Shown: one piece after another, positions 6,952-32,261 of the stretch | How positions within the stretch are numbered: the first letter of the stretch is position 1 | How the letters are laid out: each line of letters opens with the position of its first letter | IMG/VR virus record: IMGVR_UViG_3300049847_000280 | Coordinates: 1 to 37,808 of that record | Strand: one strand, 5' to 3' | Origin: a virus | Length of the DNA stretch: 37,808 bases | Made by a program: the position numbers and the translations under genes | Notes under the pieces: model-generated | The model's input: only the letters and a program-made list of their open reading frames with translations | Database searches by the model: none | What the model was told of the DNA's origin: nothing

Positions 6952-9363
6952 ATGCCCCGCGTCACTACTGTCCAAACCAACTTCACGGCCGGCGAGGTAT
7001 CGCCGAGGATTCTCGGCCGCACGGACATGGAGCGCTACGCGGCCGGCTCCGAGACGCTAGAGAACGTCGTCATTCTGCTCCAGGGCGGCATCCGCCGACG
7101 GGATGGCCTGCGGTTCTCGGCCGCAGCGCGCTATCCCACGAAGGCCGCGAGGCTCATCCCGTTCGTGTTCTCGACCACCGACGCCTACGTCGTCGAGCTT
7201 GGCGATCAATACGCGCGGTTCTACAAGAACAACGCGCAGGTGCTCGAGACCACGTTCGCGATCTCCGCGGCCACCCAGGCGAATCCCGTGGTGGTCACCG
7301 CAGTCGGCCACAACTTTGCCAACGGCGACGAGGTGCACATCGAAGGCGTGCTCGGGATGCTCGAGCTGAACGGCCGGAGCTTCAAAGTCGCGGGCGTCGC
7401 CGGCAACAACTTCAACCTTCAGGACTTAAACGCAGTCAACGTGAACGGCAGTGGGTTTGGCGCGTACTCTTCCGCCGGTACGGTCGGGCGCGTGTACACG
7501 ATCTCGACCTCCGTGCTCGAGGCGCAGCTATTTGCGACGGGCTACGTGCAGGGCGCCGACACGATGGTCATTACCCACGCGTCTCTGCCCACGCAGCGCT
7601 TGCGCCGGTTTTCCGATACGAGCTGGTCACAGGACGCGATTCCGTTTGACGTGCAGCCGTTTGACGAAATCGGCGATAGCTTCGCAAACACGCTCACCCT
7701 GTCACTTGCCACCGTCGGCGCCGGCCGCACGGCGACCGCGAGCGCGGCCACGTTCTTGAATGGCGACGTCGGCCGCACGATCTACTACCAGGGCGGCTTT
7801 GCGACCATCACGGGGTTTACGAGCACGACGGTCGTCACGATCACGATCAGCGCCGCCTTCGCCTCGGTGAACATTCCGGCCAGCGTGTGGACGCTCGGCG
7901 GCTCACCGCAGGAAACTGTGACGCCTGGCGCTAAAGACCCGATCGAGACATCGACGACGCTGACATCGGCCGCGCTCAATATCTGGCGGTCGTCGGACGT
8001 CGGCAAGTGGGTGCGGATCAACGGCGGATTGATGCTAGTGACGTCCTACACGTCGGCGACCGTGGTACAGGCGACCGTCAAGGAGGCGCTCACGAGCGTC
8101 GTCGCAGCGCCTAAGAATTCATGGAGCCTCGAGGCGAACGTCTGGTCGGCGGCGAATGGTTACCCGCGCGCCTGCACGTTCTACCAGCAGCGTCTGGTGC
8201 TCGCGGGCTCCACGGCGTTCCCACAGACGGTCTGGGCCTCATCGACGGGGGCGTATCTTGATTTCACGCTCGGCCCATACGATGACGACGCGTTCGCGTA
8301 CACGTTGGCGTCTGATCAGATCAACCCGATTATCCACATGGCGTCGAGCAAGGCGCTGTTCGCGCTGACGTACGGCGGGGAGTTCACGATCCGTGGCGGT
8401 GTCGAGAAGGCCGTCACGCCGACCAGCGTGCAGGTCGATAGCCAAACCGCGTACGGCGCCGGGCAGCCGCGCCCGCTGCGTGCCGGCAAGAACATTCTCT
8501 TCGCGCAGCGCTCACTGCTGAAACTTCGCGCGATGGGCTACGACATTGATCGGGGCGAGTACGACGCGCCTGACATCACTGCATTCTCCGAGCACATCAC
8601 GTCCTCCGGCATCAAGGACATTGCGTTCGCGCAGGAGCCAGACCCGCTCGTGATCGTGCCGCGCGTCGATGGCGTGGTTGCGACGATGACGCTTTCGGAA
8701 AAGCAGGACGTTGCGGCGTGGTCGAGGCAGGTGGTCGACGGCGTGGTCGAGAGTGCCTGCACGATTCCGACCGCGACCGGGGACCAGATCTGGATGCTCA
8801 TCAAGCGCACGGTCAACGGTGCCACGGTGCGTTACGTCGAGTTCTTCGACCCGTCGATGGTCTACTCGCTCGACTGCGCGATCACCGGGACGTCTGGCGC
8901 TGGCACGGCTACGTGGTATGGTCTCGCGCATCTTGAGGGGCGCAGCGTGCAGTGCGTGGCCGATGGATTCTATCTGGGTGCCTTCACCGTCACGGGTGGC
9001 AAGATCACGCTGCCGCGCACCGCGAAGGCGGTCGTCATCGGGCTTGGGTTTTCGCACAAGGCGAAGCCACTGACACCTGAAATTCAGACCGGCACGGGCT
9101 CAGCACAAGGCAACGCGATGCGGACTTCAGAGGTCACCATCCGCTTCCTGAACACCTACAGTTGCGACGTCAACGGCGACACGATCGACTTCGCTGCGTT
9201 CGGCTCGTCGCTCCTGGGCGTCCCGCCGGCCAGCTTCACGGGGGTCAAGCGCGGCGAGGAACTTGGCTGGGAGCGCGGATCATCGGATCTTGAGATCGGC
9301 AGCTCGCTGCCATACCCGTGGCACGTGCTCTCGATCGTGCGCAAGTTCACCGTCAACGACTGA
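6952..9363 (+). CDS. Tail tubular protein B, T7 gp12-like
   Basis: The protein has 803 residues. The N terminus (TTVQTNFTAGEVSPRILGRTDMERYAAG, residues about 5-32) is diagnostic for the gp12-like tail nozzle protein, with the following GGIRRRDGLRF element also conserved. The rest is beta-rich and repetitive, as expected for the propeller-like nozzle. The gene follows tail tubular protein A by 6 bases and ends in a TGATG overlap with an acetyltransferase gene. The protein forms the distal tail tube and attaches the fibres. Confidence 0.9.
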   Translation: MPRVTTVQTNFTAGEVSPRILGRTDMERYAAGSETLENVVILLQGGIRRRDGLRFSAAARYPTKAARLIPFVFSTTDAYVVELGDQYARFYKNNAQVLETTFAISAATQANPVVVTAVGHNFANGDEVHIEGVLGMLELNGRSFKVAGVAGNNFNLQDLNAVNVNGSGFGAYSSAGTVGRVYTISTSVLEAQLFATGYVQGADTMVITHASLPTQRLRRFSDTSWSQDAIPFDVQPFDEIGDSFANTLTLSLATVGAGRTATASAATFLNGDVGRTIYYQGGFATITGFTSTTVVTITISAAFASVNIPASVWTLGGSPQETVTPGAKDPIETSTTLTSAALNIWRSSDVGKWVRINGGLMLVTSYTSATVVQATVKEALTSVVAAPKNSWSLEANVWSAANGYPRACTFYQQRLVLAGSTAFPQTVWASSTGAYLDFTLGPYDDDAFAYTLASDQINPIIHMASSKALFALTYGGEFTIRGGVEKAVTPTSVQVDSQTAYGAGQPRPLRAGKNILFAQRSLLKLRAMGYDIDRGEYDAPDITAFSEHITSSGIKDIAFAQEPDPLVIVPRVDGVVATMTLSEKQDVAAWSRQVVDGVVESACTIPTATGDQIWMLIKRTVNGATVRYVEFFDPSMVYSLDCAITGTSGAGTATWYGLAHLEGRSVQCVADGFYLGAFTVTGGKITLPRTAKAVVIGLGFSHKAKPLTPEIQTGTGSAQGNAMRTSEVTIRFLNTYSCDVNGDTIDFAAFGSSLLGVPPASFTGVKRGEELGWERGSSDLEIGSSLPYPWHVLSIVRKFTVND

Positions 9364-9818
9364 TGAGCATCCGCCCCGCCGATCGCGCCGACATTCCGAG
9401 GCTCCTCGAGTTCGGCCCGGCCATGCACGCCGAAAGCCCGTTCTGGTCGCGCTTGCCGTTCAGCGCCTCGCAACTCGTCGAGACGCTTGAGCTGCTGATC
9501 GGCCACGAGCTTGGGTTCGTCTGGGTCGCGGAACGCAACGGCGTGGTCGTGGGCGTGCTGCTTGGCAGTTGCGAGGATTACTGGATGAGCAGCGCTCGGG
9601 TGGCGATGGAGCGGGCGCTGTACGTCGAGCCCGCTGCGCGGGGTGGCCTGTATGCTGCCCGCCTGGTGACGGCGTTCGTGGCGTGGGCGAACGAGTACGG
9701 AGCGGCATTGATCTTCGCCGGTGTGTCGACGGGCGTTCACACCGAGCGTACCGTCGGGCTCTATGAGCGCCTGGGATTCGTCCGCAACGGCGCCGTCGCA
9801 CTGGAAAGGGTGGGCTAA
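9363..9818 (+). CDS. GNAT-family N-acetyltransferase
   Basis: The protein has 151 residues from an ATG overlapping the stop of the preceding gene (TGATG). An in-frame upstream start exists but would add residues inside the tail gene. The fold signature is visible: an N-terminal IRPADRADIPRLLEF (beta1-alpha1), a central VWVAERNGVVVGVLLG (beta2-beta4), the acetyl-CoA loop region near YVEPAARGGLYAARL, and a terminal ERTVGLYERLGFVRNGAV, the common GNAT ending. The target is unknown. Such genes are often found between tail and internal virion genes in T7-like phages, so it may modify a virion or host protein. Confidence 0.85.
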   Translation: MSIRPADRADIPRLLEFGPAMHAESPFWSRLPFSASQLVETLELLIGHELGFVWVAERNGVVVGVLLGSCEDYWMSSARVAMERALYVEPAARGGLYAARLVTAFVAWANEYGAALIFAGVSTGVHTERTVGLYERLGFVRNGAVALERVG

Positions 9819-10245: not shown

Positions 10246-12320
10246 TGGCACGCATTTCGACCGGGAACTTTGGTTTCGACGCCCCTCAGGTGCCAAGCCC
10301 AGCGGACACGACGCCCGTCGGGCGCGGCCTCGAGAACCTTGCGAGTGGCGCTGAGGCGCTGGCCCACCGTTACTCCGAGGACGCGATCAACCGCGCGCGC
10401 GCCGCGGCAGCTCAGGCGTATCTCGATCACCAGCTTGCGACCAAGACCGCGGCGCAGGACATCACCGACCAGTTGGCGACCGGGCAGCTCGCGCCGGAAG
10501 CCGCGCCACAGGCGTACCAGAAGGCGACGAGCGCGATACCGCAGCCGAAAATCGGCGGCCTCCCGGTCACCGAACACGAGAACTTCGACCGGCAGTTACA
10601 GCGCACCGTGTTCGCCGGTGCCATCGACGTGCGCAAGGCGGCCGAAGTGGCCGACAAAGTGCGCTTCAAAGCGGACTTCAGCGCCGGCCTCGACAAGCTC
10701 GGGAAGCTCGCTGGCATGCCCGGCGCCAATATCGACACGATCAACCAGCAGGCCGGAATGTTCGCGCAAACCGGCATGCAGGCCGGCATCCCGAAAGATC
10801 AGGTCGACAAGGCGATTCAGGACTTCAAGGACAAGAACTGGCAGAACCACGCGACGCAGCGCGCGATGGAATCGGCCGATGATTTGCACGCGTTACAGGC
10901 GCTCCAGCACGATCTCACGGCGGCGGACGGCTACTACGCTGGCAAGCTCGACACCGACAAGCGCAATGCGGTGCTGCGCTCGGTATTGAACGACAAGGCG
11001 CAGCTCGAGGCGCGTCTCGAGCATCAAGCCGATCGGCGCGAGGCGCGGGCGGCGGTCGCCATGAACGAGATCGGCCGCCAGATCTCCTCGGGGGTGCCGG
11101 CCACCGCTCCGATGTGGGCGTCCTGGGCCGATGAGGTCAAAGGCACGTCTCAAGCCGAGGCGTTCACGGACGCCGTGGCGAACGAGGGCCACGTTCAGGA
11201 AGTGCTGAGTCAGCCCGCGCGCGATCAGGTGGCGTACGTGCAGGCCACCGAGGCTAAGCTCCTCTCTGGCGGCGGCTCACTGCGGGAGAAGGCCAACTTT
11301 GACCGCTTGAGGGAGGCCGTGATCAAGAATGTCAGCGTGCTCCATGAGGCGCCGCTGCTCTACAACGCGAACCGTACCGGCCAGAACGTGGTGCCGCTAG
11401 ACCTGGCCTCGCTGCTCGATCCGAACAGCACCCAGGTCGCCGCGCAGCTCCGCGACCGCACCGTGACGCTCGACGCGATGCGCAAGGCCGACCCGTCGGT
11501 GCGCGTGTTGCCGCTGCTGCCGCAGGAAACCCAGGTGCTCGCTGGCACGCTGAACGCCGCGACGCCGGTGCAAGCCACGCAACTGTTTGGCGCACTGCGC
11601 ACGGCTGCTGGCTCAGACCCGACGTATCTCGCGATCATGCAGCAGGTGGCGCCAGACTCTCCGGTCAAGGCGGTGGCCGGGATGTTGGCCGCGCAGCAGC
11701 GCTCGCTCACGCTTGAGCGGAACTGGTTCTCGAGCGACGTCGTGGCGAACAGCGTTGACGTCTCGAAAACCATCTTGAAGGGCGACTCGATCGTGAATCC
11801 GAGCAAGGAGGACGCAGCTACCAACGGGCATCCGAAGCTCGCGCTCTACCTGCCGCCAGGGGCCGTGACGGAGCTTCAGGCGAAGTTCAATGCGGTGGTC
11901 GGCGCGGCATTCGCAGATCGGGCGCCGGCGGCCGAGACGGCTTTCCAGGCCGTCCAGGCTTACTACGTCGGCGATGCGGTCGAGCACGGACGGCTAGCGG
12001 CCGACGCCAAAGACGTCAAGTCAGCGGACGTACGCCACGCCGTACAGGCGGTGATTGGCGAAATGGTCGACTACCACCAACGCGGCGAAGTGCTGGCGCC
12101 GTGGGGCATGGACGCGGCTACCTTCGAGGACCGAGCGCAGGCTGCGCTACGAGCCGCCCTGCCGCAACTCCCCCCTCACCAGATCGAGCTGCTCGGCCTC
12201 ATGAACCGGGACGACACGACCTACTACGTGAGCGACGGCCGCGGACCTTTGAGCGGTAAGGACGGCAAGCCGATCGTGATCGACGTAGGCGGCCTCGAGG
12301 GGGCCGGTGGCGGCTTCTGA
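10245..12320 (+). CDS. Internal virion/DNA ejection protein (large, helical)
   Basis: The protein has 691 residues and starts at ATG overlapping the previous stop (TAATG). It is dominated by long Ala/Gln/Asp-rich helices and has no signal peptide. The N terminus (FGFDAPQVPSP-DTTPVGRGLENL, residues about 9-33) is a start common among internal virion proteins that follow a gp14-like gene. It holds the place of T7 gp15 and probably forms part of the ejected channel complex. No enzymatic motif was seen. A TGATG overlap couples it to the next gene. Confidence 0.75.
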   Translation: MARISTGNFGFDAPQVPSPADTTPVGRGLENLASGAEALAHRYSEDAINRARAAAAQAYLDHQLATKTAAQDITDQLATGQLAPEAAPQAYQKATSAIPQPKIGGLPVTEHENFDRQLQRTVFAGAIDVRKAAEVADKVRFKADFSAGLDKLGKLAGMPGANIDTINQQAGMFAQTGMQAGIPKDQVDKAIQDFKDKNWQNHATQRAMESADDLHALQALQHDLTAADGYYAGKLDTDKRNAVLRSVLNDKAQLEARLEHQADRREARAAVAMNEIGRQISSGVPATAPMWASWADEVKGTSQAEAFTDAVANEGHVQEVLSQPARDQVAYVQATEAKLLSGGGSLREKANFDRLREAVIKNVSVLHEAPLLYNANRTGQNVVPLDLASLLDPNSTQVAAQLRDRTVTLDAMRKADPSVRVLPLLPQETQVLAGTLNAATPVQATQLFGALRTAAGSDPTYLAIMQQVAPDSPVKAVAGMLAAQQRSLTLERNWFSSDVVANSVDVSKTILKGDSIVNPSKEDAATNGHPKLALYLPPGAVTELQAKFNAVVGAAFADRAPAAETAFQAVQAYYVGDAVEHGRLAADAKDVKSADVRHAVQAVIGEMVDYHQRGEVLAPWGMDAATFEDRAQAALRAALPQLPPHQIELLGLMNRDDTTYYVSDGRGPLSGKDGKPIVIDVGGLEGAGGGF

Positions 12321-14440
12321 TGGGCGTATTCTCGATCGACCAGAAGGGACAGGCCGCGCTCGACGAGCTGGCCTCCTACAACCCCCTGGACGCGGCGGCA
12401 CTGCGGCCGAGCTGGTACTCGGGTGTTCCGACCGCGGTCGGGGCCGGCATCATGCGCGGCGGCGTCGAAGCGGCGCAGGCCGTCGAGACCTACGGTCGTC
12501 TGGCCTTTGATCCCCGCGCGGCCTATCACAAGGACACGACCGACGAGGCGTTTCAAAGCGCCATCAACTACTGGACGCCGACGCCTGGCACGGTCGGCGC
12601 GGCCGGCGAAGTCCTGGGCGGCCTTGCCAAAGTCGTCCTGCCGCTCGCAGCCACCGCGGGCAATCCTGCCCTCCTGGTCGGCGCGACCAATGTCAGCACG
12701 GTTCGCGAAGCGAAGCAGCGCGGCGTCGACGAGCAGACCGCGGGGAACTTGGGGGCCGCTTCCGCGTTGAGCGCGGCGATCGGGCTCAAGCTTCCGTTCC
12801 TCGGCAGCACTCTCGCGTCGAGACTGACGTCCGGCGCGATCGGAAACTTGGTGCTCGGCGCGGCCGATACCGCCGCACAGCGCGCGCTACTCGAGGGCTC
12901 TGGCTACCATGAGCTGGCCGCCCAGTATCATCCGCTCGACGTGCAGTCGCGCGCCGTTGATCTACTCACCGGCCTTGCCTTCGGCGCCGTGGCGCACGTC
13001 GCGATGCGGCCGTCGGATCGTGCCGCGGTCGCCTCGGCCGCCAACGCCAAGCATTTTCAGGTCGACACTGCGCCAGGCATGCCGGCGAACCTCGCGGCCT
13101 CCGTGTCGCACCAGGACGCGATGCATGCCGTAACGGAGCAGCTATTGCGCGGCGAGCCGGCGGTCGCCCCAGAGCCGCACCAGGGCGCCCTGTTCGAGCC
13201 GCGGCCAGATCAGGGACCGAGGCCGATCCCGTCGGAACTGACGGCGGTCGACGAGGCGCTGCCAGCCGAGCGCGCGCCGGGTGCGATCAGTCCGGCCGAA
13301 ATCCCGCGCGCCGCAAACCTCACGCCGGAACAACGTAGCGTAGAGACGGCAATCGCCGAGAAAATAGCGCGCGATCCAGCCGCCGCTGAAGCGGAGTACG
13401 CCAAACTCGAGGACGCTCAAGGCGGCAAGCTACTAAGCGCCGACACCGCTCGCGAGCTTTCTGATCACTATCTGAAGAAACGCAGCCTGTCGGAAGCGGT
13501 TCACGAGCCGGTGAGCTGGCTCATCAAACGCATGTACGCGCGGATGCTTGGCGAGGCTCCTGGGCCTGGTCAAGACCCGCTCGTGCTGTTCACTGGCGGC
13601 GGGACCGGAGCCGGCAAGACATCGGCTGTCCGCAACGCACTTCAGGAAATCTCCAAGCGCGCTCAGATCATCTACGACACGAATCTGGGAGATCTCTCCA
13701 GCGCGATTCGGAAGGTGAATCAGGCGCTCGACGCTGGAAAGCGCGTGCACATCGTTTACGTTTATCGCGAACCTGTCGATGCGCTCGTCGAGGGCGCGCT
13801 GGCTCGTGCCATGCGCCAGGAGAAAAAGCACGGCTCAGGACGCACTGTGCCGATGGAGGCCCACGCCGAGACGCACGCAAGTTCAAACGCCACGATCCGC
13901 AAGCTCGCAGAGCATTATGCCAATGATCCGCGGGTCGAGATCGGCGCCATTGATAACTCGCACGGGAAGGACAACGCCAGGCCGATACTGTTGTCAGATC
14001 TGGCAACAGTGGACTATAATTCCATTCGTGAAAGAGGATACAAGGCACTTGAGCAAGAGTACGCCGCAGGCCGAATCAGCGAGCCCGTCTACCGAGGCTT
14101 TGCCGGCTCCAAATCCGACGCCTCCGCAGCAGAAGCACCCGGAGTGGCTTCAGGAGCTGGTGGACAACCTAAACCGCAACGTCAAGAACAACGTCCTAAC
14201 GCCGTAGCAGCACCGAGCGCAGAAAGATCGGGCGCTCTCTTCGCAGTTGATTCCGCCCGTAAGGCGGCAGAGTCTCTAGACCTCAGAATGCCCACCGGCG
14301 AATTCAACGCCGACGGCTCTCCGGTCGCCATGACCGCGCGCGAGATCCTCGCCAGAGACGACGCCGAGATCGCCAAGGCCACCAACGACGCGAAAGCGTA
14401 CGACGCCGTGGCCGGATGCTTCTTGAGCGCTGGAGCCTAG
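12320..14440 (+). CDS. Ejection protein with embedded zeta-toxin-like P-loop kinase
   Basis: The protein has 706 residues. Residues 1 to about 240 are Ala/Gly-rich with hydrophobic helices, such as VLPLAATAGNPALLVGATNV, as in membrane-inserting internal virion proteins. Residues about 395-580 look like a zeta-toxin family kinase: Walker A GGGTGAGKT (426-434), then IIYDTNL (450-456), the strand VHIVYVYREPVDAL, and GRTVPMEAHAETH (508-519), then IDNS. In that family the domain phosphorylates UDP-sugar peptidoglycan precursors. The canonical Asp-x-Asp-x-Phe-Arg motif is replaced by YDTN, as in the branch found in mobile-element polyvalent proteins. A low-complexity linker and a C-terminal segment follow. 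A palindromic operator, a promoter and a nested ORF lie inside this gene. Around 13985-14060 the codons become unusual for the genome (ATA, TTG, TCA, AGA, GGA). Confidence 0.75.
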   Translation: MGVFSIDQKGQAALDELASYNPLDAAALRPSWYSGVPTAVGAGIMRGGVEAAQAVETYGRLAFDPRAAYHKDTTDEAFQSAINYWTPTPGTVGAAGEVLGGLAKVVLPLAATAGNPALLVGATNVSTVREAKQRGVDEQTAGNLGAASALSAAIGLKLPFLGSTLASRLTSGAIGNLVLGAADTAAQRALLEGSGYHELAAQYHPLDVQSRAVDLLTGLAFGAVAHVAMRPSDRAAVASAANAKHFQVDTAPGMPANLAASVSHQDAMHAVTEQLLRGEPAVAPEPHQGALFEPRPDQGPRPIPSELTAVDEALPAERAPGAISPAEIPRAANLTPEQRSVETAIAEKIARDPAAAEAEYAKLEDAQGGKLLSADTARELSDHYLKKRSLSEAVHEPVSWLIKRMYARMLGEAPGPGQDPLVLFTGGGTGAGKTSAVRNALQEISKRAQIIYDTNLGDLSSAIRKVNQALDAGKRVHIVYVYREPVDALVEGALARAMRQEKKHGSGRTVPMEAHAETHASSNATIRKLAEHYANDPRVEIGAIDNSHGKDNARPILLSDLATVDYNSIRERGYKALEQEYAAGRISEPVYRGFAGSKSDASAAEAPGVASGAGGQPKPQRQEQRPNAVAAPSAERSGALFAVDSARKAAESLDLRMPTGEFNADGSPVAMTAREILARDDAEIAKATNDAKAYDAVAGCFLSAGA
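13989..14008. promoter_or_regulatory. Operator 3, inside the zeta-kinase gene
   Basis: The sequence TGTTGTCAGATCTGGCAACA is a near-perfect palindrome with one mismatched pair of symmetry positions, and one more flanking base pair (C/G) extends it. Its halves TGTTGTCA and TGGCAACA, separated by four bases, match the two operators of the divergent control region (30496-30515 and 30584-30603) with only one base outside the shared TGTYGCCA half-site. The -35 box of the following promoter occupies positions 3-8 of the operator, as in the control region. Confidence 0.75.
13991..14020 (+). promoter_or_regulatory. Sigma70-type promoter nested in the ejection-protein gene
   Basis: The -35 box TTGTCA (13991-13996) and the perfect -10 box TATAAT (14015-14020) are 18 bases apart. 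TATAAT is rare in this GC-rich genome. The -35 box is buried in operator 3, so repressor binding would exclude RNA polymerase. The predicted transcription start, 7-8 bases after the -10 box, falls at 14027-14028, at the GTG of the nested ORF. Confidence 0.65.
14028..14207 (+). CDS. Nested out-of-frame ORF, predicted leaderless (speculative)
   Basis: This 59-residue ORF lies in another frame inside the zeta-kinase ejection-protein gene. It begins with GTG at the predicted start of the nested promoter, so the transcript would be leaderless. The N-terminal half is Ser/Pro/Ala-rich (STPQAESASPSTEALPAPNP), and the C-terminal part (KHPEWLQELVDNLNRN) looks like an amphipathic helix. The surrounding frame encodes a low-complexity linker, which leaves freedom for a second frame. 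No family is recognised. It could be an immunity or antitoxin-like peptide linked to the neighbouring kinase, or a chance ORF. The regulatory context is the main reason to list it. Confidence 0.4.
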   Translation: MKEDTRHLSKSTPQAESASPSTEALPAPNPTPPQQKHPEWLQELVDNLNRNVKNNVLTP

Positions 14441-14442
14441 CC

Positions 14443-16953
14443 GTGCAACCCGCTTGCGTACTCGCAGCCTCTCAAGCGATCGGTCGCCAGGTCACGGAGG
14501 CAGAAGCCAACGCGATCGAGAAGCGCATCGTGTCGACCATGCGCGTGCTGGCGCGCGAAGATCCGGCGGCCTGGGCAGCTAAGCCAGCAGCGCAGCGTCT
14601 CATCGAAGCATCGCAGGCGGCCGCGCAGCAGCTCGTCGCCGAGGCGCAACTGAAGCAGCGCCGCAACGCGCTATCAATTCTCGCGCAGGCCAGAATCAAG
14701 GGCCACATGCAGAACATGAGCGCGAAGGGGCTCTCGTCTCTCGACGCGCTTGATCGCGTGTCCGCTTTCCATGCCGACGGCAAGAGCGACTTCCTGTCGA
14801 TCGAGACGCACGGCAAGGCGGTCGAGCGCGACTCGTTGCGTCGCATGCTCGGCACCATCGAAGCGGCTCATCCAAAGTGGTTCGGCTTGTTCGAGAATGC
14901 CGAAGGTGTCCGCCAGATCGTGCAAGAACTGTTCGGCGAGGACTCTGGAAACGCCGAGGCTCGAGCCGGCGCCAAGGAATTCCACGCCGTCGCCGAAGAA
15001 CTGCGCCAGCGGTTCAACGCCGCTGGCGGCGACGTCGGGCGTCTTGAGGACTGGGCTATTCCGCAGCACCACTCGCAGATGAAAACGGCGAAGGCCGGGC
15101 GCGATACGTGGGTCGCCGACGTGATGCCAGCGCTCAAGCGCGAGCGCTACGTCAATCCCGACGGTTCACTGATGAATTCAGCAGAGCTGGCAGACTTTCT
15201 CGGTCATGCCTGGGAGTCGATCGCGACCGGCGGGGCGAACAAGATCGAGCCAGGGCAGTTCCGCAGAACCGGCGCGCGCGCCAATCGCGGCAACGAGCAC
15301 CGACAGATCCATTTCAAAGACGCGCAAGCGTACCTCGACTATCAGCGCAAGTACGGCGAGCGAGCCATGTACGAAGTCCTGGCCGGACATGTCTCTGCGC
15401 TGTCGAAGGACATAGCGCACGTTGAGATCCTCGGGCCGAATCCGGACGCGACCTTTCGGTTTCTGCGCGATCAGGCCGTGCAGGACGCCACACTTGCTAA
15501 CCCCACGAAGGCAGGCAAAATCGCCGAGCGCGCGGTGCGCTCCGATAACCTCTACAACGTCGTTTCCGGCAAGACCCAGCCGCTGGCTTCCGAGTGGCTC
15601 GCCAAGAGTTTCGACACGCTTCGCTCCTGGCTGATAGCGTCGCGGCTGGGCTCCGCAGTTGTCACGGCTTTCAGCGACGACGCCACGATGTACTTGACGG
15701 CGAAGCTGAACAACCTGCCGCAGATGCAACTCCTGTCCAACGAGCTGGCCGCGATGAACCCGGCCAACAGCATGGAGAAGCGCCTCGCGCAGCGCGCCGG
15801 CCTCGGCCTGCAAACCGTCGTGGCGGCGCTCAATCGTTTCGGCCAGGAAGGACTCGGCCGCAGTTGGTCCTCGAAACTCGCCAATGCGACCATCCGAGCA
15901 TCGCTGCTCGACGCCGTAACCGAGGCCCGCCGCAGGGCGTTTGGCACGACGTTCATGGGCGCGCTCGGGAGCGTCGTGAAGGAGCATCCAGACCTTGCCT
16001 CGCTCGACGCCACCGATCACCGGTTGCTGCTATCGAAGGGCGTGACAGAGAACGACTTTGCCGTATGGAAGCTCGCGAAGCTCGAGGACTGGGGTGGCGG
16101 CAACGACACGATGTTGACGCCCGAAAGCATCTACCGCGTTCCAGACTCGGCCCTCTCCTCGCTTGGCGACCCGGCAGCACTGAAGCGCCAGGCCGCGACG
16201 CGCCTCCTTGGCAGCGTGCTCGAGGAGACGGACGTCGCGATCGTCGAGCCCGGCGCCAGGGAACGCGTCCAGACCGGCTCGACGCTTCCACGCGGCACAT
16301 GGAAGGGCGAGCTGACTCGCAGCTTCTTCCTGTTCAAGTCGTTCCCGCTGGCCATGATCGAGCGTCACTGGGCGCGTGGCTTCGGGGTTCCATCGGTGGG
16401 CGGTAAGGCCGCCTACATCGCCGGACTGATCGCGTCTACAACGGTGCTCGGCATGGCCTCAAGACAGGTTCACGAACTACTCGCTGGACGCGACCCTAGG
16501 AAGATGTTCGGCGAGGGCAGTTGGAAAACCTGGCTATCTGCTGCGCTGACTGGCGGCTCTCTCGGCATCTACGGCGACTTTCTCTTCTCGCAGTCCACTC
16601 AGCACGGCGGCTCGCTCCTATCGACGATTGAGGGGCCTGTATTCGGCGTGGCCGAGGAATTCCTGAACCTGACGCAAGGCAACATCGTCGAAGCGATGCA
16701 AGGAAAGGACACGAACTTCGGAGCCGAAGCGACGAAATTCATCAAGGGAGTTACGCCTGGTGCGAGTCTCTGGTACGCCAAGGCGGCGCTCGATCACATG
16801 ATCTATCACCAGTTGATGGAATACTTCTCGCCTGGGTACCTGTCGAAGATGAAGCAACGCTTGCGGCGTGAGTTTGATCAACGCTATTGGTGGGAGCCTG
16901 GCAGAACGCTGCCCGACCGTCCTCCGGACCTGAAAGCGATCGCAGGAGATTGA
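14443..16953 (+). CDS. Very large internal virion/DNA ejection protein
   Basis: The protein has 836 residues from GTG (14443), which has GGAG 7 bases upstream. An ATG at 14416 in the same frame would add nine residues and overlap the previous gene. The start QPACVLAASQAIGRQVTEAE resembles the N termini of large phage ejection proteins (C-x-AA-x-ALGR-x-L-T-x-AE type). The N-terminal 200 residues are helical, and GRLEDWAIPQHHS near residues 202-214 is a motif of this protein class. The C-terminal part contains hydrophobic helices. It occupies the place of T7 gp16 before the terminase. No transglycosylase signature was found, in contrast to T7 gp16. Confidence 0.75.
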   Translation: MQPACVLAASQAIGRQVTEAEANAIEKRIVSTMRVLAREDPAAWAAKPAAQRLIEASQAAAQQLVAEAQLKQRRNALSILAQARIKGHMQNMSAKGLSSLDALDRVSAFHADGKSDFLSIETHGKAVERDSLRRMLGTIEAAHPKWFGLFENAEGVRQIVQELFGEDSGNAEARAGAKEFHAVAEELRQRFNAAGGDVGRLEDWAIPQHHSQMKTAKAGRDTWVADVMPALKRERYVNPDGSLMNSAELADFLGHAWESIATGGANKIEPGQFRRTGARANRGNEHRQIHFKDAQAYLDYQRKYGERAMYEVLAGHVSALSKDIAHVEILGPNPDATFRFLRDQAVQDATLANPTKAGKIAERAVRSDNLYNVVSGKTQPLASEWLAKSFDTLRSWLIASRLGSAVVTAFSDDATMYLTAKLNNLPQMQLLSNELAAMNPANSMEKRLAQRAGLGLQTVVAALNRFGQEGLGRSWSSKLANATIRASLLDAVTEARRRAFGTTFMGALGSVVKEHPDLASLDATDHRLLLSKGVTENDFAVWKLAKLEDWGGGNDTMLTPESIYRVPDSALSSLGDPAALKRQAATRLLGSVLEETDVAIVEPGARERVQTGSTLPRGTWKGELTRSFFLFKSFPLAMIERHWARGFGVPSVGGKAAYIAGLIASTTVLGMASRQVHELLAGRDPRKMFGEGSWKTWLSAALTGGSLGIYGDFLFSQSTQHGGSLLSTIEGPVFGVAEEFLNLTQGNIVEAMQGKDTNFGAEATKFIKGVTPGASLWYAKAALDHMIYHQLMEYFSPGYLSKMKQRLRREFDQRYWWEPGRTLPDRPPDLKAIAGD

Positions 16954-18917: not shown

Positions 18918-21362
18918 ATGACGGTAGCACAGCAAACATCGTACGCTCAGGCCACCGGCAACGGCGCCACCACGGTGTTCCCGTTCCAGTTCCTGACGCT
19001 CGTCAAGACCGACCTGTCGGTATATCTGGACGCGACGCTCAAGACGGTTGACGTCGACTACACGGTCTCTGGGCTTGGCGTCACGACGGGCGGTTCTGTC
19101 ACGTTCCTCGTGGCTCCAGGTAACGGTGTGATCGTTTCCATTCAGCGCACCATGCGCCGCGAGCGCACCACGGATTACCAGAACCTCGGCGACTTCGACG
19201 CCAACACCGTGAACCCTGATTTCGACCGCCCGATCCTGATCGAGCAGGACATCGACGTGCAGCTCGGTCGCTCGATTCGGACTCCTGCCAACGAGGTCGC
19301 CACCGTTCCGGTCCTGCCGTCGATCGCGAATCGGGCTGGCAAATACATTGCGTTCGATTCGAGCGGTCAGCCCACCGCATCGGCCGGCACCGGCAACGAT
19401 TCGGCGCTGCGCACAGATCTAGCCAACGGCACGGTGGGTCCAGGCACGACGCTCGTCGCCGTCAAGAAAACTACTGCTGAGACCACGGCCGGCATCACGC
19501 CGACGAACTACTACCGGATCCCGGAGCCCGTGTACGACTTGCTGCGCATCGGCCTGGTGCCGAACAGTACCGCGGAGCGCGCGGCCAACTCGACGAAGCT
19601 CAAAGCGTTGCTGAGCCCGCAGGTGACCGGCCCAGAGGGCTGGTTCATGTTCACGAACACCACGGGCGCCGACACGTACTACTTCGATTCCGTCACGATC
19701 GAGATCCGCGACGGCTGTCGTCTTAACCTCTGCGGCTGCACGGTCGACTTCGGCGGGGCGTACAACGTACTGAACAATTCATTCGGCTTCTTCACGTTCA
19801 TCCGCAACGTCGAGATCTGCAACGGCAAGATCAACGTCAACTACAACGGCACCGGAGGATTGGCCAACGGCATGGCCATGCGTATCGGCGGCCGAAGCGG
19901 ATCCGGCTTCGCGGGCGCTGCCGACATTCACGAGGAAGATTTCCCGACGAACCCGATGGGCAATATCTGGGTTCACGACCTCAACATCGTCACTAACAAC
20001 CCGAATCCGTCGGTCGTCGTCTTGCTGCTTGGTGGCCTGCGAAACACGCGTGTCGAGCGCATCTTCATTGACGGCGGAAGCGGCGCGAACACCGAAGACC
20101 TAATCTACTACGAGTTCGGCGACTGGCACTACGACGGAACCGTGCCGACGTACACGACGACGCATGCGACGCTCGAGTTCAGCGACATCGTAGGGAAGAA
20201 CATCAACAACGCGCTGGGCGGCGGCGTGCTCCACGTAGTTGGAGCGAACAGCGCGGTAGTGCGCAACATACATGGCGACGGCGTTGCCAACGTGGTTGCC
20301 TTCCGCTGCGGCGAGGCGCTGTTCTACAACGTCGGCCCGCCATTCGTCCTGGCGGGTAGCAGCCAGACCCGCTGGCACACTATCAGCAACATTACGGGCG
20401 TCAGTCTTACATCGCACCTAATGTCTCTGGTTGGCAGCGAGTCGAAAGCCGCCGGGTACTTGAATGGAACGGCTGGCGTGACCGAGCAAAAGCAGTGTGA
20501 CCTCCAAGGGTTCATCGTCAACGGTTTCAACGGCAACCGCGGTCTCTACTTCAACGGCCCAACAATCATCAATGGCGGAACCATCAAAGGCTCGACGGGC
20601 GACGGCATCATCGTTGGCGCGGACTGCGGCTGGTTCAGTGTCAACGGCGTGAACATCCTAGACAACGCCGCCGAAGGTTTCCGAGCCAACTTTGCCGATA
20701 GCCTGCGTGGCACTCCTCGAAAGCTCCGCGGTGAGGTCATTGGCTGTCGCATTTGCGGCAACGGTACCGAGGGCATCGCGTTCGACTCGACTGACGATAT
20801 CCTGATCGCCGACAACCAAGTCGGCTACACCACGGCGCGTGGCGACGCTGCCAACGAGACGGTACAGGGCACTGGGATAAATATCTCAAACACCAGCCTC
20901 GGTGTCCGCATAGTTGGCAACTACGTGACGACCAAGGGCGGCTCGTTCGCCTACGCGATCGCGAGCCCTGCGGACGCCACGATCTACAGCGCTTTCGGCC
21001 AGAAGAACATCACCGGCTCTGGCACGTTCAAGTGGGGCGGGGCGCAAATATCTGGTTCGATCACCTACTCGGCGTCGATGACGCCGGACCTGTTCGTGGC
21101 GAACAACTCAATCATCACCGCGACGAACGGCACGGCCTTCACGATCAACGCGCCGCTGAATCCGTTTCACAGCCAGATCAGCACTTACACGATCCGAAAC
21201 ACCGCGGGCGGCGCGCTCGGTGCGGCTACGTGGAACGCTGCGTTCAAGCTGGGCGCCGCCTGGACGCAGCCCGCCAACGGGTTTAGCCGTTCGGTAGGCT
21301 TCCGCTACGACGGAACGAACTATATCGAGCTGTGGCGCAGCGCTGCGGACGTGGCGAACTAG
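18918..21362 (+). CDS. Tail fibre/tailspike with T7-like N terminus and beta-helix
   Basis: The protein has 814 residues from an ATG preceded by GGGGAACCCC. Residues 1 to about 145 match the T7 gp17 tail-attachment domain (VAQQTSYAQATGNGATTVFP, later TMRRERTTDYQNLGDFDANT). After a short linker, residues about 210-700 show the repeated N-G, I-x-N-V and G-G-I-I patterns of a right-handed beta-helix, as in tailspike depolymerases. The C terminus has a small beta domain (RFYDGTNYIELWR-like end). It probably recognises and may degrade a surface polysaccharide. A catalytic pair is not identifiable by eye. Confidence 0.88.
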   Translation: MTVAQQTSYAQATGNGATTVFPFQFLTLVKTDLSVYLDATLKTVDVDYTVSGLGVTTGGSVTFLVAPGNGVIVSIQRTMRRERTTDYQNLGDFDANTVNPDFDRPILIEQDIDVQLGRSIRTPANEVATVPVLPSIANRAGKYIAFDSSGQPTASAGTGNDSALRTDLANGTVGPGTTLVAVKKTTAETTAGITPTNYYRIPEPVYDLLRIGLVPNSTAERAANSTKLKALLSPQVTGPEGWFMFTNTTGADTYYFDSVTIEIRDGCRLNLCGCTVDFGGAYNVLNNSFGFFTFIRNVEICNGKINVNYNGTGGLANGMAMRIGGRSGSGFAGAADIHEEDFPTNPMGNIWVHDLNIVTNNPNPSVVVLLLGGLRNTRVERIFIDGGSGANTEDLIYYEFGDWHYDGTVPTYTTTHATLEFSDIVGKNINNALGGGVLHVVGANSAVVRNIHGDGVANVVAFRCGEALFYNVGPPFVLAGSSQTRWHTISNITGVSLTSHLMSLVGSESKAAGYLNGTAGVTEQKQCDLQGFIVNGFNGNRGLYFNGPTIINGGTIKGSTGDGIIVGADCGWFSVNGVNILDNAAEGFRANFADSLRGTPRKLRGEVIGCRICGNGTEGIAFDSTDDILIADNQVGYTTARGDAANETVQGTGINISNTSLGVRIVGNYVTTKGGSFAYAIASPADATIYSAFGQKNITGSGTFKWGGAQISGSITYSASMTPDLFVANNSIITATNGTAFTINAPLNPFHSQISTYTIRNTAGGALGAATWNAAFKLGAAWTQPANGFSRSVGFRYDGTNYIELWRSAADVAN

Positions 21363-30484: not shown

Positions 30485-30513
30485 AGTCTGCGCTCTGTCG
30501 CCAAACTTGGCAA
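30485..30513 (-). promoter_or_regulatory. Candidate leftward early promoter
   Basis: The -35 box TTGCCA lies on the minus strand at 30513-30508 within operator 1, mirroring the rightward promoter. The -10 box is unclear: CAGACT at 17-base spacing (30490-30485) is a weak match, and TACACC lies too far. Transcription would start roughly 30-40 bases before the ATG at 30447. Confidence 0.4.
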
Positions 30514-30515
30514 CA
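30496..30515. promoter_or_regulatory. Operator 1, imperfect palindrome
   Basis: TGTCGCCAAACTTGGCAACA has half-sites TGTCGCCA and TGGCAACA around a 4-base spacer. Sixteen of 20 bases are self-complementary. It overlaps the -35 region of the leftward promoter. The centre is 88 bases from operator 2. It is the probable binding site of the helix-turn-helix protein encoded at 30621. Confidence 0.7.
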
Positions 30516-30583: not shown

Positions 30584-30603
30584 AGTTGCCAGGAATGGCG
30601 ACA
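30584..30603. promoter_or_regulatory. Operator 2, imperfect palindrome
   Basis: AGTTGCCAGGAATGGCGACA has half-sites GTTGCCA and TGGCGACA (reverse complement TGTCGCCA) with the same 4-base spacer as operator 1. The -35 box TTGCCA is positions 3-8. Binding here would turn off the repressor gene itself, a classical autoregulation. Confidence 0.7.
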
Positions 30604-30614
30604 AGCCCTACACT
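30586..30614 (+). promoter_or_regulatory. Repressor promoter (leaderless transcript predicted)
   Basis: The -35 box TTGCCA (30586-30591) and -10 box TACACT (30609-30614) are 17 bases apart. The start of transcription, about 7 bases after the -10 box, falls on or next to the ATG at 30621. No ribosome site precedes that ATG. Confidence 0.6.
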
Positions 30615-30620
30615 GCGCGC

Positions 30621-30806
30621 ATGAAAGCACCCGCTCGCATCCTGCGCACGCTGTTGCGCGATCGCACGTACCGGCAGCTCGCCTCCGAGCTTGGCTGCTC
30701 GGCGACGTACTTAAACCGCGTCGTGACCGGCAAGCGCGAAGCGGGGCCGAAGCTGATGATTGCACTCGGGCTCGAGCGTCAAACCCGCTACAGCGTCAAG
30801 CCGTGA
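30621..30806 (+). CDS. Small helix-turn-helix transcription regulator
   Basis: The protein has 61 residues. The core TYRQLASELGCSATYLNRVV (residues about 17-36) is a Cro/CI-type helix-turn-helix with the second helix starting after G-C-S. A basic end follows. It lies between two divergent promoters with two palindromic operators, and is predicted to be translated from a leaderless message. A dimer would fit 8-base half-sites spaced by 4 bases. It probably controls the leftward operon, itself, and the nested promoter at 13991. There is no dimerisation or RecA-cleavage domain like that of lambda CI, so an SOS-type switch is not expected. Confidence 0.75.
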   Translation: MKAPARILRTLLRDRTYRQLASELGCSATYLNRVVTGKREAGPKLMIALGLERQTRYSVKP

Positions 30807-31185: not shown

Positions 31186-31407
31186 ATGACGATATCCACC
31201 ACGCCGACCTGCGCCACGTGCCTCTACGCCGCGCGTACGGCCGCCCAAGGCGTGCAAGTGATCGGTGAGACGGCAAAGCTCGAGTGCCGCCGCTACCCGC
31301 CCACCGTGCACATTGTGCACAGCAGCAACGGCGGTATCGGCTTCATGTCGGCGTATCCGCCCGTCGAGCACGCCTGCTGGGAATGGAGCCCAGCCGAATC
31401 GCACTGA
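31186..31407 (+). CDS. Small Cys-rich phage protein
   Basis: The product has 73 residues from ATG with AAGGAGA upstream. An N-terminal CATC pair is followed by a CRRYPP motif and a C-terminal HACWEW, a known pattern of small phage zinc-finger-like proteins. The function is unknown. An exact 15-base palindrome GTGCACATTGTGCAC (31306-31320) lies in the coding sequence. Confidence 0.6.
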   Translation: MTISTTPTCATCLYAARTAAQGVQVIGETAKLECRRYPPTVHIVHSSNGGIGFMSAYPPVEHACWEWSPAESH

Positions 31408-31422
31408 GCCCAAAACGCGAAA

Positions 31423-31441
31423 CCCCACGTCTTAGGTGGGG
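31423..31441. terminator. Hairpin after the repressor operon, possible bidirectional terminator
   Basis: CCCCAC (31423-31428) pairs with GTGGGG (31436-31441) over a 7-base loop. On the minus strand it is followed by TTTCGCGTTTT, which would act as a terminator. On the plus strand the following bases are not T-rich. It lies 16 bases after the last gene of the small rightward operon. Confidence 0.45.
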
Positions 31442-31442
31442 C

Positions 31443-31471
31443 TTGCGACTACAGCGGGGGCGCTGTAGATT
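31443..31471 (+). promoter_or_regulatory. Candidate promoter for late transcription
   Basis: TTGCGA (31443-31448) and TAGATT (31466-31471) are 17 bases apart and match four of six consensus bases each. It would read toward the late genes through a long untranslated leader. It lies just downstream of the hairpin. Matches of this quality also occur by chance. Confidence 0.3.
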
Positions 31472-31736
31472 TGGTTCGTCGGTTCTGGAATTCGCGGTTC
31501 CAACCGGCAGAGTGGGTCAAGCACTAAGCCTTCACCGACTTGCCGAAAATCCTACCGCATTCCTGCCCCGGCCGCATCAGGCAGGTGCAAACTCTGTGCG
31601 TTTCCTGGTGCCGTCTCGCGAAAACCTCGAGACGGCGCGCACTTAGGAACGCGGGTTAAATGCCGGGAGTGCGTTAAAAGATCCCGACAGCTCCCAGCGA
31701 CGGCTTCGGCTCCGCAGGGTGTCTATCCAAGACAAC

Positions 31737-31764
31737 TAACTCCCAGGCTCACCCCTGGGGGTTA
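31737..31764. repeat. 11-bp stem hairpin
   Basis: TAACTCCCAGG (31737-31747) pairs with CCTGGGGGTTA (31754-31764) with one G-T pair and a loop of 6 bases. It overlaps the stop codon of the putative minus-strand ORF 31749-31958. It may be a transcript terminator on the minus strand or a protein-binding site. Confidence 0.5.
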
Positions 31765-31958
31765 GGGGGGCTCTTGCTCCAGCATTCCCACCGCGGTGTC
31801 AGGACACTCCCCCACGATGCGCCACAACGACACCTATACAGCGCAAAGGCGCGCCTCTTCTCTCCCAATTCGATGTAAATCGTCCCCCCGTCTGCACAAC
31901 CAACAGGCGCCACGAATCGAAGGTGGCAATCCACTGTGCGACTGCCCAACCTCTTCAC
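31749..31958 (-). CDS. Possible minus-strand Cys-rich protein
   Basis: A GTG (31958) opens a 69-residue frame that has features of a real protein: TIYIELGEKRRAFALYRCRC, then GASWGSVLTPRWECW. The CxC with nearby Cys suggests a small zinc ribbon. It would be the only leftward gene to the right of the switch. A TTG 6 bases upstream is also possible. The hairpin at its stop could be its terminator. Composition of this region is unlike that of neighbouring coding DNA, so confidence is low. Confidence 0.35.
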   Translation of the reverse strand: MKRLGSRTVDCHLRFVAPVGCADGGTIYIELGEKRRAFALYRCRCGASWGSVLTPRWECWSKSPPNPQG

Positions 31959-31973
31959 TCCCAATGCCCGAAG

Positions 31974-31982
31974 TTATCCACA
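31974..31982 (+). promoter_or_regulatory. Perfect DnaA box (TTATCCACA)
   Basis: The consensus 9-mer TTATCCACA occurs in the noncoding interval. One more exact copy (8330-8338) lies in a tail gene and is probably chance. Host DnaA could bind here, in agreement with the lack of a phage replication initiator in the genome. A single box does not make an origin. Confidence 0.35.
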
Positions 31983-32261
31983 GACCTTTACAAACTACGC
32001 GAGGTTTCGAGAACGTGGAACATCCCGAAGTCACTGATGCCGTCGCTATCTCCAAAGCTCTCCACGAGCTGCGCCTCGATCGCTGCGAAACCGTCCCTCT
32101 GCGCAGAGCCCACCGCAGAACGCCGAAACGACCCAAGACCCACTTGCTCACGCTCTGGGCTCAACGCGCGATCAACGAACGCATCACCATGCAGATAAAC
32201 GGCGGAAATGCTGAAGATATGCGCATAACTCCCTCCCCTCCCTCTCGCGCGCGCGTTTAGC

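Follow-up and report, generated by a model that had tools for sequence, protein, structure and literature searches.

A small gene with its own promoter overlaps a phage-borne zeta kinase gene out of frame and may encode the kinase's antitoxin

In epsilon-zeta and PezAT systems, the gene for the epsilon or PezA antitoxin lies upstream of zeta. The zeta-fold kinase AvrRxo1 has been shown to form a toxin-antitoxin pair with Arc1, an antitoxin encoded 3′ of the kinase (PMC4938570). Zeta-toxin-like kinases have also been described in polyvalent proteins (Iyer et al. 2017, PMC5512222), and in mqsRA, a toxin-first pair, the antitoxin gene mqsA has its own promoters (PMC6918082). Here, we describe a zeta kinase locus in a 37.8-kb record of an uncultivated virus (IMG/VR record IMGVR_UViG_3300049847_000280; all 37,808 nucleotides are referred to as the window). 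A small gene in the +1 frame (14028 to 14207, plus strand), encoding 59 amino acids, overlaps the 3′ end of the kinase-coding region and is preceded by an internal promoter. A sequence-only reading of the window had proposed such a promoter and out-of-frame gene within the zeta kinase gene, and we found both to be conserved across dozens of phages.

The host gene (12320 to 14440, plus strand) encodes a 706-amino-acid virion- or ejection-type protein. Its N terminus matches epsilon15-type proteins and is followed by the kinase domain (13430 to 14107, plus strand) and a C-terminal part of 63 amino acids. Its sequence profile, P-loop, conserved aspartate, and predicted fold all identify the domain as a zeta kinase. 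It matches PF06414 (E = 1.6e-11), has a profile match in the Protein Data Bank (PDB) to gonococcal zeta_1, and contains the P-loop GGGTGAGKT and the conserved motifs YDTN and GRTVP before ending in GRISEPVYRG. The P-loop GGTGAGK, together with conserved residues D83 and R126/R138, was found in 51 loci. An AlphaFold2 model of the domain had a predicted local distance difference test score (pLDDT) of 96, and a Foldseek search with this model returned gonococcal zeta_1 as the top PDB match (6epg; template modeling [TM] score, 0.79), followed by AvrRxo1 and then by epsilon/zeta.

Single-protein scans of viral and genome contigs found no close relatives of the 706-amino-acid protein. Relatives were found first through the neighboring gene (14416 to 16953), which encodes 845 amino acids; some of them carried a zeta domain and some did not. 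An alignment of five zeta domains then led to 80 loci in viruses and to 21 in contigs of prokaryote genomes. Our comparison set comprised 69 distinct zeta kinase loci that were <80% identical, mostly from uncultivated phages. Null expectations for start codons and the promoter were generated by synonymous-codon recoding of the kinase frame. The loci are mutually related, so that P values are indicative, and the result survives thinning.

Across the 69 loci, a small gene in frame +1 overlaps the 3′ end of the kinase. In nearly all relatives, the +1 open reading frame (ORF) terminates mostly 27 to 67 codons past the conserved kinase end GRISEAVYRG, and the encoded proteins (approximately 35 to 65 amino acids) have a common tail, for example ELVDNLNRNV, ALVDNLNRNV, or ELADQLNRNV. 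A profile built from 73 +1 ORFs, with the window left out, matched 14028 to 14207 as the best of 1,071 ORFs (E = 8.7e-7). In leave-one-out profile searches, the +1 ORF ranked first in 64 of 74 loci, with E values of <1e-3 in 47 of these. For the 47 loci in which the kinase frame continues, a +1 profile of the overlap DNA found the window ORF (E = 1.6e-5); profiles of the same DNA in the kinase frame or in +2 found nothing. The kinase ends 5 to 20 codons beyond its domain in about one-third of the loci, where the small gene continues alone. Once the kinase has stopped, the ratio of nonsynonymous to synonymous polymorphism (pN/pS) has a value of 0.21 in the +1 frame, versus >1.6 in the other frames.

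The overlap also leaves a mark on the kinase frame. When synonymous sites were compared across relatives, a check that the sequence-only reading had proposed, constraint was found at the −10 box of the promoter and in the overlap. It was strongest at codons 14084 and 14087, which coincide with a conserved Pro-Ser-Thr of the small protein (14085 to 14093, plus strand). Further downstream, 14142 to 14189 (plus strand) encodes a C-terminal stretch that is predicted to be helical and contains the family motif LVDNLNRNV. Between 14110 and 14207, the GC content at host codon positions 1, 2, and 3 is 0.82, 0.62, and 0.30, compared with 0.72, 0.51, and 0.77 between 12320 and 13984, and it therefore appears that the +1 frame takes over. 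The unusual codons of the host frame had been attributed to DNA signals. This explanation holds for the promoter and operator part, but such codons extend to about 14254, with third-position GC of 0.23 to 0.33, because the second gene also shapes this DNA.

The two overlapping genes occur together: the +1 gene is present at most zeta loci and absent from 13 related contigs without a recognizable zeta domain, some of which are fragments. The zeta subfamily itself is almost absent from annotated phages, as judged from tblastn searches with three zeta queries, which reached it in only one record, MW202577.1. A search of annotated plasmids with one query gave no match. In MW202577.1, a small ORF (L022:6815-6964) is unannotated and follows a "thymidylate kinase" that is in fact a zeta-bearing protein of 879 amino acids. 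We found no description of a partner gene of this type in a literature search limited to open-license papers. The small gene thus appears to be undescribed in both literature and annotation, and its position within another gene, in a different frame, is apparently why the family was missed.

The palindrome, the promoter TTGTCA-N18-TATAAT, and the GTG of the 59-codon ORF were all located where the sequence-only reading had placed them. The −35 box (TTGTCA, 13991 to 13996, plus strand) and the −10 box (TATAAT, 14015 to 14020, plus strand) agree with the consensus at 11 of 12 positions, making this the top match between 12000 and 31000. The −10 box is indeed perfect, but the claim that TATAAT is rare in this genome did not hold, with one occurrence in the window versus 1.04 expected from shuffles. 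By itself TATAAT is unremarkable, and only the combination of signals is unusual. In 43 of the 69 loci, the best sigma-70 match upstream of the GTG position falls at the same place, with examples including TTGTCA-N18-TATAAT (L060), TTGACA-N17-TACAGT (L039), and TTGACA-N18-GATAAT (L063). Against synonymous recoding, a promoter at this conserved place had a combined P value of 8e-19 over the 69 loci and of 7e-7 over a thinned set of 21 loci that were <55% identical; no promoter signal was obtained from control regions that had been shifted. The final base of the −10 box occupies a wobble position of the kinase and is T in 59 of 69 loci, versus 24 expected (z = 9.7). Where the codon is asparagine, AAT was used 39 times and AAC once. 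This T is also kept in loci whose +1 ORF begins further downstream.

Signals for translation were likewise in excess. Of the 69 loci, 68 have a +1 start codon among the final 26 codons of the kinase domain, whereas synonymous recoding predicts 41. In 51 of 69, a +1 start is paired with a Shine-Dalgarno duplex at least as stable as −4 kcal/mol (17 predicted). The excess of both favors independent initiation and disfavors frameshifting. At one locus (L060), −35 box, −10 box, AAGGAGG, and ATG all lie within the kinase coding sequence. In the window, the GTG at 14028 is the predicted first base of the transcript, 7 nucleotides past the −10 box, and the sequence-only reading had proposed leaderless initiation there. 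Such initiation is plausible, though not proven, because a start at this position is the only usable one in three relatives (L023, L011, and L035) and because of a codon bias at the same place. When the kinase has arginine at the GTG position and the next codon starts with G, CGT is used in 12 of 18 cases and CGC or CGG in none; in the background, CGT accounts for 70 and CGC or CGG for 319 of 499 codons. However, a TTG at 14049 to 14051 (plus strand), whose Shine-Dalgarno site is better (duplex, −5.8 kcal/mol), may be an alternative or additional start, so the leaderless mode is not settled. Taken as a whole, the sequence evidence shows a real overlapping gene with its own promoter, its own starts, and linkage to zeta.

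In the window, this promoter is covered by an operator-like palindrome that is private to this phage. The 20-mer TGTTGTCAGATCTGGCAACA at 13989 to 14008, which can be written TGTTGTCA-GATC-TGGCAACA, resembles two operators of a control region at 30496 to 30515 and 30584 to 30603. The distance to the control region was first given as 19 kb; in window coordinates, it is 16.5 kb. The second of its operators lies over the −35 box of a promoter (TTGCCA-N17-TACACT, 30586 to 30614) for a 61-amino-acid helix-turn-helix (HTH) protein (30621 to 30806, plus strand; PF01381/phrog_3642), the presumed repressor and the presumed ligand of all three sites. The control-region pair gives the consensus TGTYGCCA-N4-TGGCRACA. 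The third site had been said to have the same half-site and spacer; the right half and the 4-base spacer do agree with the consensus, but the left half has one mismatch. The proposed common geometry was borne out, in that the −35 box begins at the third base of the 20-mer at both promoters (13991 and 30586). HTH gene and hidden gene alike have an operator over the −35 box and a start codon at about +1.

A site with at most one mismatch appeared in 3 of 1,743 third-order Markov windows (P = 0.0017) and at the operator position in 0 of 3,000 synonymous recodings of the kinase gene, and 1.06 Mb of sequence from other loci contained none. These frequencies strongly indicate that the third site is genuine and beyond chance, in line with what had been claimed, and we infer that the HTH protein may bind it as a repressor. 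The next-best operator-like site in the window, TGTCCGCATAGTTGGCAACT at 20903 to 20922, has three mismatches, lies inside a putative tail-fiber gene, and is within chance.

It is also conceivable that the gene and promoter are real and that the palindrome arose by chance or serves another protein, with no repressor control. Consistent with this, the site has one mismatch to the consensus, protein binding is only presumed, and the palindrome is not conserved. Of the two signals whose loss from relatives had been named beforehand as grounds for rejecting the sequence-only reading, the palindrome is lost and the −10 signal is kept. Dyads over the −35 box showed no excess in relatives, so the operator is no family trait. 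However, it would not be expected in them, because no convincing homolog of the HTH protein was detectable in relatives. Such a site anywhere is also improbable per window, as the Markov frequency indicates, and this one sits exactly over the −35 box in the geometry of the HTH gene. We therefore consider the absence of repressor control doubtful. The best reading of the sequences is that a conserved promoter and gene may have been placed under the repressor in this phage alone, with repressor control as a local addition.

What might the small protein do? We infer that it is most likely an antitoxin, because the AvrRxo1-Arc1 layout and the second-gene promoters of mqsRA are precedents. According to this model, a zeta kinase domain carried in a virion- or ejection-type protein encodes a separate small protein in the +1 frame of its own gene's 3′ end. 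The gene for this protein has a dedicated sigma-70 promoter and start codon. The protein itself is predicted to have a disordered N terminus followed by a single amphipathic helix, which ends in LVDNLNRNV or a similar sequence, and it would bind and neutralize the kinase as an antitoxin or immunity partner. The antidote could then be produced whether or not the toxin gene is transcribed. The promoter in this phage would have gained an operator like those of the HTH repressor gene. If binding by the HTH protein is real, both genes would be coexpressed at a level set by autoregulation, and a dormant genome could plausibly supply the antidote. That this overlapping module consists of a hidden gene for the kinase's antitoxin or immunity partner, with a repressor operator added to its promoter, seems to us reasonably probable. 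A broader proposal is that an undescribed family of out-of-frame antitoxin or immunity genes with their own promoters accompanies virion-borne zeta. Tied to the repressor here, it would let the host of a dormant genome survive the injected kinase of related phages or let producing cells survive until lysis. For this proposal, we see the case as evenly balanced.

Several observations weigh against the antitoxin model. The kinase activity and toxicity of this zeta subfamily, which in the zeta/PezT family mean phosphorylation of a UDP-sugar and growth arrest, are predicted but unproven, the operator palindrome occurs in no relative, and the profile failed to recognize the +1 ORF at five loci (L011, L051, L054, L108, and L109). 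The small proteins had no meaningful match in Pfam or PHROG, and no similarity to epsilon or Arc1 was found. Pfam recognized no epsilon/PezA antitoxin domain among them, and the window protein has 59 amino acids and a single predicted helix. Modeled alone, it formed only a helix (pLDDT, 74; predicted TM score, 0.31).

The main rival holds that the small gene is real but encodes a chaperone or packaging partner, which would keep the injected kinase inactive or packageable until delivery. In most loci zeta does lie within a large virion-type protein, and Arc1 itself was initially named as the chaperone for a secreted effector with a zeta fold (PMC4938570). However, a free-standing kinase of approximately 270 amino acids with the small gene occurs in Acidobacteria contigs and, at a phage locus, immediately ahead of a terminase-like gene; in neither case is packaging obviously needed. 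A dedicated promoter that yields extra partner without kinase also fits an antidote better, and we regard a chaperone as unlikely. The Acidobacteria contigs (L115-L117, L119, and L122) encode free-standing zeta of approximately 270 to 340 amino acids with an overlapping small gene, outside the context of any large virion protein; these are possible candidates for chromosomal toxin-antitoxin pairs.

Programmed +1 frameshifting, by which the +1 ORF would be a C-terminal extension of the kinase and no separate protein would be made, accounts for the same frame at every locus and for an ORF that continues beyond the kinase end. It is nevertheless very improbable given the large excess of start codons and Shine-Dalgarno sites, the promoter just upstream, and the +1 stops found a short distance upstream in several loci (for example, 4 codons ahead of the anchor in L094/L095 and 9 in L022); by eye, no common slippery site was seen at the junctions. 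That palindrome, promoter-like string, and open frame are all accidents of GC-rich coding DNA could be entertained when they were viewed in a single sequence with one TATAAT expected, but it is contradicted by all of the cross-family tests and has next to no credibility.

The wider setting of the locus appears to be that of a virion-type protein into which zeta was inserted. The window has a podovirus gene set akin to those of epsilon15 and YeP phages (portal, major head, tail, and terminase families), and zeta sits inside the virion gene block, between parts common to zeta-less relatives. The final 63 residues of the 706-amino-acid protein (14246 to 14437) occur in zeta-less relatives (L005, L006, L008, L014, and L016), which suggests that zeta and the small gene form a module set into an older protein. 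At the same junction, one locus (L009) has an additional 1.9-kb insert. Among relatives of the adjacent 845-amino-acid gene, five (L011, L012, L014, L015, and L016) have insertions of approximately 0.55 to 0.93 kb at the same codon, near residue 590, as an intron, intein, or homing element would. Elsewhere in the virion block, an acetyltransferase-like gene (9318 to 9818) overlaps the end of the gene for an 803-amino-acid tail protein and the next frame. The region from 31400 to 32260 contains no clear gene and has a hairpin-like sequence, AACCCCACGTCTTAGGTGGGGC, near 31422. No Rfam family or tRNA was found in the window. Lysogeny of the phage is not established, because no integrase turned up among the window proteins that were scanned, which were a part of the total.

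If the small protein is an antidote, it would explain how a zeta toxin can be carried harmlessly in virion proteins, would add a class of antitoxin, and would offer a clear case of a promoter, a ribosome-binding site, and a second protein within a toxin coding sequence. As in epsilon-zeta and PezAT, including gonococcal epsilon_1/zeta_1 (6epg), the kinase domain is recognizable by sequence profile and fold. In contrast to those systems, the candidate partner lies at the 3′ end of the kinase, in another frame, is much shorter, and has no recognized epsilon-like domain. The part of the polyvalent-protein account considered here (PMC5512222) contains no partner gene or internal promoter, whereas the domain in our loci carries a hidden gene. 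The locus is like AvrRxo1-Arc1 in that a zeta-fold kinase, which can be part of a delivered protein, is followed on the same strand by a small helical partner. However, Arc1 has 81 to 98 amino acids and a KExFD...ExxYY motif and is located after the toxin gene; the partner described here is shorter, has an LNRNV motif, and starts out of frame inside the kinase gene from an internal promoter. As in mqsRA, the toxin gene comes first, and promoters for the antitoxin alone would uncouple the two. Unlike in mqsRA, the proteins of which are unrelated to these, the start of the second gene lies within the toxin gene, out of frame with it, and this phage has a repressor operator in addition.
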